Of a stretch of 64,000 bases of DNA, positions 56,613-63,678 are shown piece by piece (positions within the stretch are counted from its first letter, which is position 1; the number at the start of each line of letters is the position of its first letter). The stretch comes from Acidisarcina polymorpha. Lineage in GTDB: Bacteria > Acidobacteriota > Terriglobia > Terriglobales > Acidobacteriaceae. The notes below the pieces were generated by a model. The model did not search any database. It saw nothing but the letters and a program-made list of their open reading frames with translations, and was not told where the DNA came from. The stretch covers positions 1,550,001-1,614,000 of the forward strand of contig NZ_CP030840.1 in the NCBI RefSeq assembly GCF_003330725.1, written 5' to 3'. The translations under genes and the position numbers were made by a program.

Positions 56613-58397
56613 TCAGTATCTCAGTCCTAATCTTTGGGGAAACTCTTCTTCCTCCTCGTCTACCTCGATCAGGCCGAGAAAGTCGGTCACGATTCTGCGG
56701 TGACGCCTCAACAGTTCGAAGTGTGCTCCGACGACGAGCGCGGCTACGATCAGCAGGTGTCCCAGGCCCTGTAGAAGCCAGTCTTCCAGCCCCAGAGTTA
56801 ACAAAACGAGCGGTGGAAAAAGCCCAAAGTATTGGATCAAGACAAAGGCCAGGTTTGTCGTAGAAGCAGGTCGCGCGCCAGTGAACGGAACCATCTTCAC
56901 GTTCAAAAAGAAGGCGTCGGTCAATAGAAGACAGAGGCTGATGCCGACAAATACTTGAACGCCGGTATTGCTCCAGCCGTTGAACCCGGGCGGAGCGATA
57001 GCATGGATCAATGTCACACTTCCCAAGGTGAGTATCAGCGCCCATAGAAGCACCCACCACCTGGTTGCCGTGGACTCATCCCATCCCGGTTTGCCATTGA
57101 TGACCCGGAATATCCAGTTGACCTTGCGGTCGGCCGGACCGAGAAAAGCCGCTCGTAAACCGGCAATCGTCCAGAAGGCGATGATCGGAATTGCCGCTCG
57201 CAAGCCATCAGGCGAGAAGACGAGGCTGATGTGGCCATCGCCCAGCTTTAACATCACCACTCCGGCGATAACCAATGCCATCCCGCCTCCTCCGTACATG
57301 GTCAGGTAAACGCGGTAGCGCGGGGTGCGCAGCAGCGTTTGGCTGATGAAGTGAAAGATGGCCCGGCGCTGCGGTATCCGCAACAGCGTCTTGTGAAGTA
57401 CAGAAGTGAGAGGAATGAGGATACGATTCTGCGTGTTTCGCGGGTCGGCCCCCTCAACGACGTGACGCATCCGGGAACGGTATGCGAACGGATAAAACAG
57501 GCTGGCCATTGCAATCATGAAAGCGGTCGCAATCCATCCGGTACGCGCCAGGGTCGCAAATACAGGTAAGGTCGATGAGCCCCTTAACAGGCGCTCGTAA
57601 ATGCCCAGAAACCAAAACGGCGGAAAATATTGAACCTCACGTCCGCCGGAGCTGAGCAAAGCTTCCAAAAACCTCGAGACGATAGGAAAGATCAGAAGCA
57701 TCGTCAGCAGCCCAGTGACTGAGAGTCCTTGCAGAAAGGGTGAAATCGTCCTCGAGATTCGTTCTCCGAGCAGCGTCAAGAGAGAGCCCTGGAGCGCCAG
57801 GAAAAAGGCGGCAATGAATGCACCACTCATTGTGACCGCAACCAGGTGAGCAAAGAAGTGGCGCGCCAGACTCGGCAAGTCGGCGGAGGCGGGAAAGAAT
57901 AAGCTCCCCAGTGCGTTTGCGCCGAGCAGAAAAATCCCTAAGAACAGGACCACTGCGGAGACCCGTGCCCAGAATAGCGTCTGGCGTTGGATTGAAAGAG
58001 TAGAGAGCACAAAGACATCCAACAGATCGGGGAAGAAAAAGTCCCATACAAAGATCGTGATGGCTCCGATCGCTACGAAGGAATACATCACATAAAAATA
58101 GTGGTCGCTTATCTGTAACCAGAATGGCCGGCCGCCTGGATAGTGGTATGGCGGGAAGAGATAGATCGCGACACAAAGCCCGGGAAGTGCTATCGCATAG
58201 GCAATCTGTAAGGCGCGCGCCTTGGTCTCTCCGTCCGATGAGGTCGTTTCATTGGTGAAGAAACGATCAAGAAAATGCCGCACGAGAACCTGGAATTGAC
58301 TGCGCTCTTGCGGATCGCCATCGAACAAGGCAGCTTGGACAGCGAGCGAGAGAACGGGATGCTTGGGCGGTGAGAAGAGCCGCACCCGGCTAAGCAT
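56613..58397 (-). CDS. ABC exporter permease-like membrane protein
   Basis: A 594-residue integral membrane protein with about 12 hydrophobic segments (ALPGLCVAIYLFPPYHYPGG, AVVLFLGIFLLGANALGSLF, GLSVTGLLTMLLIFPIV, VSLCLLLTDAFFLNVK and others). It lacks a recognised ABC2 signature, but the start overlaps the ATPase gene by 8 bases (58390-58397), which marks it as the partner permease. The substrate is unknown. A short cytoplasmic N-terminus and large loops differ from classic 6-helix ABC-2 permeases, so it may be a fused or atypical one. Confidence 0.82.
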   Translation of the reverse strand: MLSRVRLFSPPKHPVLSLAVQAALFDGDPQERSQFQVLVRHFLDRFFTNETTSSDGETKARALQIAYAIALPGLCVAIYLFPPYHYPGGRPFWLQISDHYFYVMYSFVAIGAITIFVWDFFFPDLLDVFVLSTLSIQRQTLFWARVSAVVLFLGIFLLGANALGSLFFPASADLPSLARHFFAHLVAVTMSGAFIAAFFLALQGSLLTLLGERISRTISPFLQGLSVTGLLTMLLIFPIVSRFLEALLSSGGREVQYFPPFWFLGIYERLLRGSSTLPVFATLARTGWIATAFMIAMASLFYPFAYRSRMRHVVEGADPRNTQNRILIPLTSVLHKTLLRIPQRRAIFHFISQTLLRTPRYRVYLTMYGGGGMALVIAGVVMLKLGDGHISLVFSPDGLRAAIPIIAFWTIAGLRAAFLGPADRKVNWIFRVINGKPGWDESTATRWWVLLWALILTLGSVTLIHAIAPPGFNGWSNTGVQVFVGISLCLLLTDAFFLNVKMVPFTGARPASTTNLAFVLIQYFGLFPPLVLLTLGLEDWLLQGLGHLLIVAALVVGAHFELLRRHRRIVTDFLGLIEVDEEEEEFPQRLGLRY

Positions 58398-59163
58398 GTT
58401 CCACCAGCATGGTTTCGACCAACTCGCGAGCTAACACCTTGGTATCCTGCTGCTGCACCAGTTGAGCGAAGGCGCTTTCAAGATTAGCAAGCTTCATCAG
58501 CCTGGTCAGCTCAGAGGGCGCGGTGTCGGCGAGGATCCTACCCTGGGCGATCACCACCACCCGATCGCAGATTTGCTCGACCACTTCGAGAACATGGGAG
58601 ATATAGAGAATCGCTTTTCCGCTCGCAGCCAGTTGCTGCAGCAAGTCCTTGAAGAGTCGCGCCGAGTCGACATCCAGCCCGGAGAGCGGTTCATCGAAAA
58701 CCAGCAGTTTGGGATCATGCATGAGCGCCGCCGCGATCAGCACCCGCTGCTTCATACCTTTCGAATATGCGGAGATCGGAGAATGCCGCCAGGATTCGAG
58801 GCCCAGCAGGCGGAGCAGCTTGTTGGCTTTGAGCTGGATGAGCGGCTCAGGCATGCCGCGTAAGCGCCCCACCAGCTGAAGATATTCCAAACCGGAGAGG
58901 TAGGTGTACACGTGCGCCTCTTCGGGAACGTATCCCAGCTTAGCCCGAAATCCAGCCAGATCGGCGCGGATGTCTACACCTTCGAACAAGACTTTTCCGT
59001 CATTCGGCTGGAGAATGCCGGTGATGATTTTGACAGTGGTGGACTTTCCCGATCCGTTGGCGCCCAAGTAGCCAACGATCTCGCCAGTTCCCACCCGGAA
59101 GTTCACATTGGCGATCGCCGGAATCCCTCGGTAACTTCTCGAAACGTTGTGCAGTTCAAGCAT
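58390..59163 (-). CDS. ABC transporter ATP-binding protein (ABC-2 exporter type)
   Basis: A complete ABC ATPase of 257 residues: Walker A GANGSGKSTTVK, Q-loop region KLGYVPEEAHVYTYLSG, signature YSKGMKQRVLIAAAL in place of LSGGQ, Walker B LLVFDEPLSGLD and the H-loop ILYISHVLE. The layout matches the drug/antibiotic or polysaccharide exporter group. I use the ATG at 59163 because GGAGG precedes it by 8 bases; an ATG at 59178 is also in frame. It diverges from a PadR gene, with a long inverted repeat between them, so PadR control is likely. Confidence 0.94.
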   Translation of the reverse strand: MLELHNVSRSYRGIPAIANVNFRVGTGEIVGYLGANGSGKSTTVKIITGILQPNDGKVLFEGVDIRADLAGFRAKLGYVPEEAHVYTYLSGLEYLQLVGRLRGMPEPLIQLKANKLLRLLGLESWRHSPISAYSKGMKQRVLIAAALMHDPKLLVFDEPLSGLDVDSARLFKDLLQQLAASGKAILYISHVLEVVEQICDRVVVIAQGRILADTAPSELTRLMKLANLESAFAQLVQQQDTKVLARELVETMLVEHA

Positions 59164-59186
59164 GATGGAAGCCTCCATTCCTGCCC

Positions 59187-59235
59187 CCTATGTAGCATAC
59201 TGTCTTAGAGCTAGTCAAATAGCATGCTACATAGG
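59187..59235. promoter_or_regulatory. Inverted-repeat operator between ABC exporter and padR-type gene
   Basis: CCTATGTAGCAT (59187-59198) and ATGCTACATAGG (59224-59235) are perfect 12-base inverted repeats 25 bases apart. They contain ATGTA...TACAT halves, the kind bound by PadR-family repressors. TTGACT (minus strand, 59217-59212) could be the -35 of the exporter promoter, and TAGAAT (59236-59241) sits 6 bases before the padR ATG, hinting at a leaderless padR transcript. Binding by the adjacent PadR is inferred, not shown. Confidence 0.75.
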
Positions 59236-59247
59236 TAGAATGCCGCC

Positions 59248-59565
59248 ATGGCCGTTGAAGCGAAGCTCTCCCATACCGCTGCCTTGATCCTCCAGGCCAT
59301 TCACGCCGGGCAGGTTTACGGCTTCAGTGTCATGGAGAGGACCGGACTGCCGAGCGGAACTGTATACACGGCTCTGCGCCGCATGGAGCGCGACGGACTC
59401 ATCCATTCAAAATGGGAACAGCAATCGATCGCCGACGCAGAGCAGCGGCCGCTGCGCAAGTACTACAAGTTGACCCAGGCCGGCGGAGAGATGCTTTCGG
59501 CACTTTATAAGCGGTATCCATTGCTGGAGAGGTTGATTCCTTCGCCGGAGGTGGAAAACGCATGA
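59248..59565 (+). CDS. PadR-family transcriptional regulator
   Basis: A 105-residue winged-helix repressor of the compact PadR group: LSHTAALILQAIHAGQVYGFSVMERTGLPSGTVYTALRRMERDGLIHSKWEQ, then RPLRKYYKLTQAGGEMLSALYKRYP. The short C-terminal helix places it in the small PadR class found before permease genes in Acidobacteria. Its stop overlaps the next gene start by 4 bases (ATGA). It diverges from the ABC exporter, and an inverted repeat of 12-base arms lies between them. The signal is unknown. Confidence 0.94.
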   Translation: MAVEAKLSHTAALILQAIHAGQVYGFSVMERTGLPSGTVYTALRRMERDGLIHSKWEQQSIADAEQRPLRKYYKLTQAGGEMLSALYKRYPLLERLIPSPEVENA

Positions 59566-61082
59566 CCAGTCGAGACCTGATCAACTCTCTGCCGGTATGC
59601 AGGATCTTGCTGCGGACGGCGGGTCATTTCGTACCCCGAGAGTACCGAACGGAATGGGCAGCCGAATGGGAAGCGGAACTCTGGCACATCCGGAGCCTGG
59701 GCGGCTCTGAATCTTCGCTCCGGGGCAGCGGCTATGGATCGCCGGCGCCCGCTGTCTTTTGTCTTGGCGCGTTCCAGGACGCACTTTGGCTAAGACGGAA
59801 TGACCCGCATTTTGCGCTGCGTGAGCTGGCCCGGCTCGGCTCTTCATCGCGATGCGTTTTGTCCCTCGCAGCCTGGCTGATCACGAGCCTTCTACTTTGT
59901 TTCTGGCTGCCGTCTGCCCGCAAGGCGATGCTGCCTTCTCCGTACCCTGGTTCCAATCAGGTAGTACTGATTTCGCCGAGCGGAAAATCTGCTTCGCAGC
60001 TTCCCACGATCCGAGTTGCCGACTATCGCGCATGGAAGACCAGCACAAGACATCTGTTTACCGAGCTCGCCTTTTACCAGATGGTCGAGAAGCGAGTTCA
60101 TCTGGCGCCTCACCAGACGGTTGACCTTTCGATCGTGCGATCGAGCACCAACCTCTTTGAATTGCTAAACTTGCCTTCGTTCTCGCTGGCGCCTGGTCAG
60201 AGGCCTGGACTGCTTCTGAGCGAGGCGGCGTGGCGAACCTATTTCAAAAGCGATGCTCGGATTGTCGGACGCCTGGTAGAAGTCGGTGGACTGCAGGTCC
60301 GCATAGTTGGCGTGCTCTCGCAGGATCTCTGGCGCTTGCCGGGCCACGCGGACGGTTGGATGATTGCCGAAGGTGATCCGCTGCAAGGCCTTCCTTCCAA
60401 CTCCAAGGGTTTCGTGCTTGCACATTTACAGCCCTCTGGATTCTCTTCAGACCAGCATCAGATGATCGTCTACCGGGAGAATGGAGACGCCGACCGTTTC
60501 GACTGTGTCTCGCTCACACAACAAGCGAGTCTGCCCTTCTCTATTTATCTCTTCACGCTGTTTGTGGCCTGCCTGGCGCTGCCCGCCACTACGCCTCTGC
60601 CCTTGGGGGAATACCCTGCCCGCTCTGAATCTCTGGCCTGGCGGATCCGGATCCGGCGATGGCTCTTCCTCGCCTTCAAACTCGCGCTCATCCTGCCGCT
60701 CGTGTATTTTTCTTCAGGTGTGCTGGCATATGGCAATTTGTTCTCCGGGATTCGCGCTGTCAACTCCGTTTCCGCGCAGTATTTGCAGCTTGGCAGTTCC
60801 TTCTTAGGTCTGCTTTTCGCCTTTCGTTGGGCGTTGCGCGACCAACGCAGCCGCTGTCCAGTGTGCTTGCGCAGGCTCACCAATCCGGCTCGGGTGGGAG
60901 AAGCATCAAGGAACTTCCTGGCATGGAATGGCACCGAATTGATCTGCTCGGGTGGACATGGGCTGCTCCATATCCCCGAGATCCCAACCAGCTGGTTCAG
61001 CACGCAACGCTGGCTCTATCTGGACTCATCCTGGAGCAGCCTCTTTTCCGACGTGTCTGTCGCCTCTGCAGGAGCGCTCTAG
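59562..61082 (+). CDS. MacB-like periplasmic-domain membrane protein with C-terminal cysteine motif
   Basis: A 506-residue protein coupled to the PadR gene. It starts with a conserved cytoplasmic piece (PREYRTEWAAEWEAELWHIR) known from Acidobacterial MacB-type permeases. One helix (VLSLAAWLITSLLLCFWL) is followed by a periplasmic stretch resembling the MacB core domain (LLNLPSFSLAPGQRPGLLLSEAAWRTYF; IVGRLVEVGGLQVRIVGVLSQDL). C-terminal helices follow (FSIYLFTLFVACLALP; LAFKLALILPLVYFSSGVLAYG; LGSSFLGLLFAFRWAL). After them comes CPVCLRRL ... LICSGGHGLLH, a zinc-ribbon-like pair of motifs (CxxC, CxGGH). It is too short for a full two-repeat permease; function unknown. Confidence 0.75.
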   Translation: MTSRDLINSLPVCRILLRTAGHFVPREYRTEWAAEWEAELWHIRSLGGSESSLRGSGYGSPAPAVFCLGAFQDALWLRRNDPHFALRELARLGSSSRCVLSLAAWLITSLLLCFWLPSARKAMLPSPYPGSNQVVLISPSGKSASQLPTIRVADYRAWKTSTRHLFTELAFYQMVEKRVHLAPHQTVDLSIVRSSTNLFELLNLPSFSLAPGQRPGLLLSEAAWRTYFKSDARIVGRLVEVGGLQVRIVGVLSQDLWRLPGHADGWMIAEGDPLQGLPSNSKGFVLAHLQPSGFSSDQHQMIVYRENGDADRFDCVSLTQQASLPFSIYLFTLFVACLALPATTPLPLGEYPARSESLAWRIRIRRWLFLAFKLALILPLVYFSSGVLAYGNLFSGIRAVNSVSAQYLQLGSSFLGLLFAFRWALRDQRSRCPVCLRRLTNPARVGEASRNFLAWNGTELICSGGHGLLHIPEIPTSWFSTQRWLYLDSSWSSLFSDVSVASAGAL

Positions 61083-62127: not shown

Positions 62128-62922
62128 TCAGTCCGCGAAATCAGGCTTCTCTCGAACCGGATAACCGAGCAGATACGTGACCGGAAGAAATCCTCGGCGC
62201 TCCTCTCCCATGTGCCATTCATAGACTTTCGCCAGCGGCTCTACCAGCTCTTCTAATTCCTGGCGGGAATAGGCGCGCAGGCAGGAAACCATTCCGTCGT
62301 AGAAGAGGACGAAGGGGACCACGGGAATCACATAGGTCCAGAACAGCCGCGACCACCGGAATGGCCGGATCGACGGCGCCAGCAGCCATGAAATCGCCGG
62401 CAGGAGACAGATAGTTAACATCGTCTTGGGCGAACGGCGAGCCACTTCAAAAGTGCCGAACCCGCGGCGGCATCGCACCGCGTCCTCCAGTACCTCGCGG
62501 GCCCGATCCGGGCCAAAGTGATGGAATGACGAGAAAATTGTTCGGAAGCCGCGCAGGTCGGCTGGAATTCGAGTGGCGTCGATGGGTGTTGGTTCGTACT
62601 GAAGCATCTGTGTAGTAGCTCTTGCCTGTTCGAATGCGCCCTGATTCGGATACTTGTCAGTAAGCCTCACCAGAATCTGGGAATCTTGTTGCTGCAGATC
62701 GAGCTCACGGGCAAGCCTTGGCCAGGGACCGCCTCCGCCCGAGCAAAGATCGAGCACCTCGCGGGTACCGGCGTACTTCATGCTCTGCAGCAGCCGGGCC
62801 AGGATCGGTTCATAGGAGTTTCCGAAATTCCAAAGAGACTGCAGGGCATCCGTGACCAGGTCTCGCAGAAAGTTCGGGAACTTTGGGTGATCGTGAATTT
62901 CCTGAAGTTCTAAACGGCGCAT
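62128..62922 (-). CDS. SAM-dependent methyltransferase with hydrophobic C-terminal half
   Basis: A 264-residue class I methyltransferase. The SAM-binding motif is VLDLCSGGGGPW (about residues 57-68), with later motifs VRLTDKYPN and FRTIFSSFHHFGPDRAREVL. The C-terminal half contains two hydrophobic stretches (MLTICLLPAISWLLAPSI; FWTYVIPVVPFVLFYDGMV), unusual for soluble methyltransferases, so it may associate with the membrane or act on lipid-like substrates. The ATG at 62922 lies behind GGAAGAG; upstream codons are not homologous. The substrate cannot be predicted. Confidence 0.85.
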   Translation of the reverse strand: MRRLELQEIHDHPKFPNFLRDLVTDALQSLWNFGNSYEPILARLLQSMKYAGTREVLDLCSGGGGPWPRLARELDLQQQDSQILVRLTDKYPNQGAFEQARATTQMLQYEPTPIDATRIPADLRGFRTIFSSFHHFGPDRAREVLEDAVRCRRGFGTFEVARRSPKTMLTICLLPAISWLLAPSIRPFRWSRLFWTYVIPVVPFVLFYDGMVSCLRAYSRQELEELVEPLAKVYEWHMGEERRGFLPVTYLLGYPVREKPDFAD

Positions 62923-63039
62923 GAATACTCTTCCTTCGAAACTCAGTGTCCTCAGTGTAGATGCGGTGAATGCGGCGAACTGAGGTGCTCGTATCGGGGG
63001 CAGTGCTTGTATCGGGGCCCTGTTTTGGCGGAACATGGG

Positions 63040-63678
63040 ATGAGCGGAACCTTAGCCGAGTTCGTCTTTCTAGCAGCTATGAGTTCCTCAGAAGGACAAA
63101 TCGTTGGCTGGATGCACGTGAATCCTATGGTCGCCGCACCAGCGGACTCTCTCAACGAAGTGGATTCAGGGGAAGCGATAGCAGCGCTTGTCTCCCAATA
63201 TTCCAACACTCTTTACCGCGTTGCCTATTCGATCACCCGCAATTCTGCAGAGGCCGAGGACGCCGTGCAGGAAACATTTCTGCGGGTGCTCCGACACCGG
63301 GAGAAACTTGGGGAGATCCGCGACCACCGGGTGTGGCTGGTGCGAATCACCTGGAACGTGGTGCTTGACCGGAAACGGCGCACCAAGACTCGCCCGGAGA
63401 CAGAAGATATAGCCGATCTGGTGCGAACTCTACCCGCAAACAACCCCACTTCTGAACGAACGGCCATCTCGTCCCAGGAACACGCGCGCATTCTGGCGTT
63501 GATCGATCAGCTTCCCAAGAAGGAGAGAGAGGCGCTGCTGCTTTCCGCCGTAGAGGAGCTCTCGACCGCTCAGGCCGCCGCTGTGCTTAACACGAGCGAG
63601 TCGTCCGTACGTTCCCGAATCTTTCGCGCTCGTCATCAACTTGCCGCTCTGCTCGACAAAGAAAGGATCGCTCGATGA
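63040..63678 (+). CDS. ECF RNA polymerase sigma factor
   Basis: Region 2 (ALVSQYSNTLYRVAYSITRNSAEAEDAVQETFLRVLRHREKL, then VWLVRITWNVVLDRKRR) and region 4 (LPKKEREALLLSAVEELSTAQAAAVLNTSESSVRSRIFRARHQL) are clear, with no region 3. The next gene starts four bases before its stop (ATGA), as in the other ECF pair of this window. The start is uncertain among TTG 63007, ATG 63040 and ATG 63079; I use 63040. The 5' end overlaps no other gene, but the divergent methyltransferase begins only 118 bases away. Confidence 0.9.
   Translation: MSGTLAEFVFLAAMSSSEGQIVGWMHVNPMVAAPADSLNEVDSGEAIAALVSQYSNTLYRVAYSITRNSAEAEDAVQETFLRVLRHREKLGEIRDHRVWLVRITWNVVLDRKRRTKTRPETEDIADLVRTLPANNPTSERTAISSQEHARILALIDQLPKKEREALLLSAVEELSTAQAAAVLNTSESSVRSRIFRARHQLAALLDKERIAR

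Follow-up and report, generated by a model that had tools for sequence, protein, structure and literature searches.

The window considered here is a stretch of 64,000 nucleotides from Acidisarcina polymorpha (contig NZ_CP030840.1, positions 1,550,001 to 1,614,000), a soil acidobacterium with a 7.6 Mb genome, and it harbors two divergent pairs of overlapping genes: a permease and an ATP-binding cassette (ABC) ATPase on the minus strand, facing a PadR regulator and a 506-residue membrane protein (hereinafter P506) on the plus strand (Table 1). The original prediction had named these four open reading frames (ORFs), and all of them are found; its portrayal of the set as a regulated envelope export or sensing unit also fits the evidence gathered since. 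We consider it probable that a PadR repressor and a membrane receptor, P506, together control an ABC-2-type exporter in a self-contained export-control module. This proposal is built on the linkage of the genes, the mosaic origin of P506, the pairing of its N-terminal prefix with PadR, and the conservation of the operators with their co-loss alongside the ABC genes, each established computationally.

Table 1. Features of the module, numbered from the first letter of the window (aa, amino acids; TM, transmembrane helix)
Feature	Position	Strand	Remarks
Permease	56613-58397	-	594 aa, ~12 TM, predicted as two fused ABC-2-like halves
ABC ATPase, DrrA/GldA type	58390-59178	-	262 aa; 8-base overlap with permease start
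Predicted operator arm, ABC side, CCTATGTAGCAT	59187-59198		Exact 12-base inverted repeat
Putative sigma-70-like promoter of padR-P506 (TAGTCA, 18, TAGAAT)	59212-59241	+	Consensus match only
Predicted operator arm within PadR promoter, ATGCTACATAGG	59224-59235		Exact 12-base inverted repeat
PadR regulator	59248-59565	+	105 aa
P506, PadR-coupled mosaic membrane protein	59562-61082	+	506 aa; 4-base overlap with PadR (ATGA)
P506 residues 1-93, N-terminal helical prefix (RxxWxxEWxxEL)	59562-59840	+	Three modeled helices; shared with N-termini of acidobacterial duplicated orphan permeases (ADOPs)
P506 residues 94-343, TM1, MacB-like periplasmic domain, TM2	59841-60590	+	MacB_PCD, ADOP model, profile and fold matches
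P506 residues 360-495, 2TM and CxxC-CxxxH domain	60639-61046	+	Conservation; stand-alone ~150 aa homologs

Relatives of P506 were gathered from named genomes and from 150 genomes of the order, and their neighboring genes were then mapped. Among the matches listed, the long form of P506 is present in at least 33 of the 150 genomes, and a short form of about 260-320 aa, devoid of the periplasmic domain, in at least 17. A PadR gene lies beside a long or short P506 at 63 loci, 57 of which also possess the ATPase and permease (39 with the long and 18 with the short form). These counts include three modules with a split or cut permease (L022, L025 and L027, among the 57) and one locus with a broken PadR (L074, among the 63), and set aside a truncated copy (L031), L034, the fragments L093, L094 and L113, and a long form with no PadR match and one stop codon in its match (L089). 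The gene order permease(-)/ATPase(-)//PadR(+)/P506(+) recurs across Acidobacteriaceae, the divergent arrangement being the same in all 57 full modules, and the closest relatives in the scan of named genomes, such as that of Acidipila rosea, come from this family. Conversely, a close homolog of the permease (at least 390 bits) was detected in 45 of the 150 genomes, and a comparison of coordinates places it next to a P506 from among the matches listed in 40 of these, with one genome (G068) being counted by coordinates alone. Two of the remaining five genomes (G061 and G008) have a PadR-P506 pair elsewhere, while G105, G065 and G045 have no P506 among the matches listed. Thus, the joint conservation of the two sides, to which the original prediction had tied its own fate, holds in both directions, and the four-gene unit is real and conserved.

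Within this unit PadR is paired with P506. At 57 of 64 loci the two genes share the -4 overlap when the P506 start nearest the PadR stop is chosen, and they occur with no adjacent ABC genes at L067, L068, L091, L092 and L102, to which L074 with its broken PadR may be added; in the genome containing L091 (G119), the contig that bears PadR-P506 also has an ATPase and permease, at a distance of about 7 kb (L237 4753-7499). P506 is the sole full-length member in its own genome, where 12 of 13 weaker matches fall within open frames of at least 814 aa. Decayed copies were also observed, in the form of C-terminal fragments of P506 with no other module genes (L093, L094, L113).

The original prediction had described an isolated MacB-type periplasmic domain in P506. 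The domain itself is upheld by a match to MacB_PCD (PF12704; 27.9 bits, the cutoff being 27), which recurs in 13 of 20 aligned family members at E-values up to 1, and by a fold that matches the periplasmic region of MacB (3ftj, Z 11.5) in structure comparison. It is not isolated, as it comes with a prefix and a first transmembrane helix of the type seen in the ADOPs. A profile built from eight ADOP-length proteins that bear the prefix aligns by hhalign, over its positions 11-354, with residues 8-333 of P506 (probability 99.9, E 1.2e-33); two of the eight were scored on the ADOP model TIGR03434 and exceeded its cutoff of 622 (L167, 926 bits; L036, 864 bits). P506 itself obtains 44.7 bits against the model's cutoff of 622.3, over residues 122-276 only. 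The profile alignment ends at TM2, and no FtsX or ABC_tran match was seen in P506. We take these alignments to indicate that the prefix, TM1 and periplasmic domain of P506 share ancestry with ADOPs. The AlphaFold2 model of P506 (mean predicted local distance difference test, pLDDT, 76.8) comprises three N-terminal helices, TM1, a periplasmic domain at 134-317 and three further transmembrane helices; matches of residues 1-86 to ligand-gated channels in the structure comparison, at a root-mean-square deviation (rmsd) of about 9-10, were disregarded.

The C-terminal cysteine motif to which the original prediction had drawn attention (CPVC, CSGGH) comprises C432, C435, C462 and H466, and the pattern CxxC-x20-32-CxxxH occurs in each of the 65 proteins of the family that were examined, of which 45 are long, 19 short and one truncated; the conserved ligands are those of a zinc ribbon or finger, and this domain may bind zinc. 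The 2TM-CxxC/CxxxH part also forms whole proteins by itself, about 150 aa in length, in two other Acidobacteriota families, f2 and f3, and no PadR match was seen in the stretches around those stand-alone homologs that were examined. Separately, in both f3 genomes examined, the stand-alone gene adjoins one coding for a bifunctional transglycosylase/transpeptidase of the PBP1 type (L164 6248-6694, L165 6263-6688). P506 thus looks like a mosaic, in which the prefix and an ADOP-type TM1/periplasmic domain are joined to a stand-alone-type 2TM/CxxC-CxxxH domain, and a combination of domains that had at first gone unrecognized becomes explicable as such a fusion.

Columns with at least 95% identity among 44 long members account for 25 of 65 positions in residues 431-495, 12 of 93 in the prefix and 2 of 200 in the periplasmic domain, a pattern that suggests a receptor, with the periplasmic domain being the most variable part. 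The long and short forms require two changes on an ABC tree of 57 rows, which was midpoint-rooted and contains four long branches of unsure place (L085, L075, L088 and L090). As the long forms occupy deep branches of this tree, some of them among these long branches, and as a long homolog of 481 aa with prefix, MacB_PCD and CxxC/CxxxH is found outside the order in another family of the class (L163 6860-8305), the simpler reading is that the periplasmic domain was lost, perhaps twice, in the short forms.

The PadR protein contains the PF03551 winged-helix domain (44.4 bits against 27, E 1.7e-11) and scores 40.3 bits on TIGR03433 (padR_acidobact), under the cutoff of 101.8. No Pfam or NCBIfam match was obtained over the prefix in the proteins scanned. 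Across the phylum, a profile of the short members matches the N-termini of frames that are mostly of ADOP length, with any match in 35 of 297 genomes, and it supplied 17 prefix-bearing loci outside the module, to which L036 from a Gemmatimonadetes metagenome-assembled genome (MAG) was added. PadR lies directly upstream in 16 of these 18, and the other two (L148 and L154) are in clusters with an upstream PadR gene (L167 and L166, respectively). In one such cluster six ADOP-length frames follow a single PadR gene in tandem, and five of these frames start with the prefix as called (L166 2095-18525). For comparison, 25 of 29 ADOP-type loci with perm_prefix_1 (one further locus, L175, having been removed for a stop) have a PadR within 1.5 kb upstream. 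In a tree of 124 columns, few as they are, 40 prefix-type PadRs (24 of the 63 from the module and 16 from the outside loci) are fully separate from the 25 perm_prefix_1 PadRs with support of 100/100; both sets were collected with one hidden Markov model built from module PadRs, which very different PadRs could escape. On this phylogenetic evidence we hold that the prefix marks a separate PadR lineage. Membership of the prefix in the HAAS superfamily was also considered and is not supported by sequence: neither P506 nor any of 20 family members gave a match to HAAS (PF22564) at E 1, no conserved GxP was apparent by eye in a 19-member alignment, and hhalign against perm_prefix_1 aligned in local mode 24 columns at the transmembrane boundary alone (probability 65; 41 when forced to be global).

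On the other strand, the ATPase matches ABC_tran (E 5e-29) and the DrrA model (E 5e-61, under that model's cutoff). The permease has no match in Pfam or NCBIfam, and a search of PDB sequences with its profile returned nothing at E 1. In its AlphaFold2 model (mean pLDDT 71.4), residues 55-311 match ABCG/NosY transmembrane domains (7r8b_B, Z 14.2, 225 aligned, rmsd 5.0) and residues 341-575 match PmtCD (6xjh_A, Z 10.0, 197 aligned, rmsd 4.1), with Z-scores in a range that helical bundles can reach by chance; Foldseek matches are weak, the best being to the mycobacterial efflux pump 8k1o (E 0.24). Taken with the ATPase, these modeled resemblances make an ABC-2-type exporter likely.

The perfect 12-base inverted repeats reported between the two gene pairs are indeed exact. 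Both exact arms occur in none of 12,800 upstream regions obtained by single-base shuffling, and a pair of their 8-base cores separated by 20-50 bases is found at one place in the entire genome, against none for a reversed control pattern; with this single occurrence and its conservation elsewhere, a chance repeat was rejected. The consensus scan that yielded the promoter in Table 1 found one such match compared to a mean of 0.1 in shuffles, and the PadR-side arm lies within its spacer. CTATGTAG...CTACATAG is common to the intergenic regions of long and short modules, and both arms are present in 52 of the 57 modules with ABC genes (51 exactly), namely in 38 of the 39 long modules and 14 of the 18 short ones. 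The spacing of the arms clusters at 21-22, 28-32, 41-43 and 49-50 bases, a count uncorrected for kinship of the modules. At PadR loci with no adjacent ABC-permease, the ABC-side arm is missing upstream of PadR in six of six and the PadR-side arm is kept in five of six, while in G061 and G008 the transporter unit located elsewhere retains both arms, 21 bases apart. Two features, a spacing that changes by roughly 10 bases at a time and the separate loss of the ABC-side arm, favor reading the repeat as two predicted PadR operators, one per promoter; a single operator composed of two half-sites appears less likely on the same grounds.

These predicted sites are of a familiar type. The canonical PadR site is an inverted repeat, ATGT/ACAT, with a spacer of 8-10 bases (PMC3506622), and CTATGTAG-N4-CTACATAG fits it; at L149 the dyad CTATGTAGTTTTCTACATA is nearly complete (ATGT-N8-ACAT). 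Of 16 prefix-bearing loci outside the module, 8 have the core TATGTAG/CTACATA upstream of PadR, versus 1 of 25 perm_prefix_1 loci, in a count that uses approximate PadR starts (a fixed length in the perm_prefix_1 set), excludes looser variants of the core and holds L036 apart. The footprint of the arms, their co-loss with the ABC genes and their reuse by related PadRs together support the predicted binding of PadR.

Several observations were made at transporters separated from P506. In G119 a single CTACATAG core lies near the ATPase start (7373 of L237). No arms are seen in the fetched stretches of the three transporter genomes without P506 (G105, G065 and G045); in all three, the ATPase is preceded by a distinct repeated element, TAGTCG. 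In two of them, frames matching the P506 profile, which are probably ADOPs, adjoin the ATPase gene (L228 8754-11384, 876 aa; L229 2653-5076, 807 aa). The ADOP-like frame and the TAGTCG element together look like a swapped regulator.

We accordingly picture the module as follows, on the understanding that the individual steps are predictions. The ATPase and the fused two-half permease would form the exporter. PadR would bind at the padR-P506 promoter and at the ABC promoter, to an operator of the type CTATGTAG-N4-CTA(C) in each case, and is most likely a repressor of both; repression rather than activation is our inference. P506 would act as the dedicated membrane partner of PadR, presumably in direct contact with it via the cytoplasmic helical prefix. 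The MacB-like periplasmic domain, when present, may receive an envelope-side signal, and the cytoplasmic CxxC-CxxxH domain, as the most conserved part, may be a structural or sensing hub. Upon the signal PadR would release DNA, such that both exporter and sensor are made.

Certain facts weigh against this proposal. Three genomes (G105, G065 and G045) retain the transporter with no P506 of either form among the matches listed; 19 short members are devoid of the supposed signal-receiving domain (as judged in an alignment of 12 long and short rows, and by length otherwise). There is no PadR match within the 14 kb stretch around the prefix-bearing long homolog L163, and the C-terminal domain is modeled at a pLDDT below 50. 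As regards the operators, 5 of the 57 ABC modules have no recognizable arm pair (L035, L088, L099, L106 and L112; three with the ABC-side core only, one with the PadR-side core only and one with neither exactly), and the two operators of the window each have one strong half, the inner halves of both being degenerate. A further difficulty comes from Listeria, where LieA is repressed by the PadR protein LftR with or without its partner LftS, deletion of lftS having left repression unchanged (PMC4517056). Given the dispensability of LftS, a P506-like partner may not transduce a signal but instead be one of the targets.

This last point leads to the rather unlikely alternative that P506 is a co-regulated target or accessory, while PadR alone senses an entering small molecule and represses both exporter and P506. 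LmrR, a multidrug-binding repressor of the exporter LmrCD (PMC4235314), sets a precedent for such direct sensing. However, the PadR lineage follows the prefix type of its neighbor, whatever comes after the prefix, and the survival of PadR-P506 with no adjacent ABC genes (L067, L068, L091, L092) suggests a pair. We regard it as very unlikely that P506 is instead a transport subunit, namely a MacB/FtsX-like half-permease or an adaptor working with the ATPase or exporter, with PadR merely regulating the set: its topology of TM1, periplasmic domain and TM2-4 does resemble MacB (5gko_A, 261 residues aligned, Z 9.1, rmsd 6.8), but the partner permease already resembles a fused two-half ABC-2 type, the ADOP profile match ends at TM2 with no FtsX match seen, and 18 of the 19 short members, all devoid of the periplasmic domain, remain in the four-gene module. 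It is likewise unlikely, if less so, that the true input is the C-terminal CxxC-CxxxH domain, by cytoplasmic zinc or redox/thiol sensing, with the periplasmic domain being dispensable. The very conservation of this domain and its motif, and again the existence of the short members, would favor such a role; yet a structural zinc site would be equally conserved, and its homologs stand alone with no PadR match in the fetched stretch.

No description of this four-gene module was found in the open-license PMC literature. The original prediction went too far in calling it a new system, because the combination of PadR with a membrane partner, including MacB/PCD proteins, is known as the HAAS-PadR dyad (PMC11237479). 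These dyads are described as an alternative to two-component systems, and include fusions to FtsX-like transmembrane domains with MacB/PCD (PMC11237479). Like them, the module couples a stand-alone PadR gene to an adjoining gene whose membrane-protein product begins with a three-helix domain. Unlike them, the P506 prefix has neither a PF22564 match nor a conserved GxP and goes with a PadR lineage distinct from that of the perm_prefix_1 ADOPs, the remaining permease is replaced by the 2TM-CxxC/CxxxH domain, and a divergent exporter is attached. The PadR and membrane partner arrangement is thus already known, and the module is a variant with its own prefix, domain mosaic and exporter. With ADOPs (TIGR03434) P506 has in common the prefix, TM1, periplasmic domain and the start of TM2, but it has no second half and no FtsX match.

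The nearest studied analog that we found is LftRS-LieAB of Listeria, which likewise has a PadR (LftR), a partner gene (LftS) and a DrrA-type ABC transporter under LftR repression (PMC4517056); LftS is a DUF1048 protein, placed in the HAAS superfamily by PMC11237479. It differs in that the LieAB exporter is not adjacent to LftRS and LftS is dispensable for LieA repression, and the excerpts of PMC4517056 mention no MacB-like or CxxC/CxxxH domain. P506 has the core fold of the periplasmic domain of MacB from MacAB-TolC and, unlike MacB, shows no ATPase and no FtsX match. To our knowledge, LmrR has no membrane partner. The LmrR-LmrCD system resembles the module in having a PadR repressor of an ABC exporter and departs from the above proposal in that LmrR binds drugs itself (PMC4235314, PMC5428041).

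Further along the window, a methyltransferase-like ORF of 302 aa (62128-63036; Methyltransf_25 under its cutoff) is divergent from an ORF for an extracytoplasmic function sigma factor (63007-63678). The former was not seen beside other copies of the module in the neighbor mapping of P506 loci.

ADOPs can be numerous in acidobacterial genomes, with one MAG containing 102 of them, 80 of which are transcribed (PMC10564751), and no described function for them was found in the open-license PMC literature. We tentatively raise the possibility, one that we would not yet hold as probable, that many ADOPs are PadR-coupled membrane receptors rather than transporters. The present module would then be an ADOP cut down, fused to CxxC/CxxxH and wired to an exporter, and would define a second class of prefix-PadR one-step transmembrane signaling, distinguished by a PadR lineage and an operator code, CTATGTAG-N4-CTACATAG, that belong to it. 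The same kind of PadR pairing recurs with the orphan permeases of the phylum, and the module suggests a DNA target for the entire PadR lineage. With an ADOP piece tied to one repressor, a short operator and an exporter, one promoter and two genes suffice to put the receptor idea to the test.

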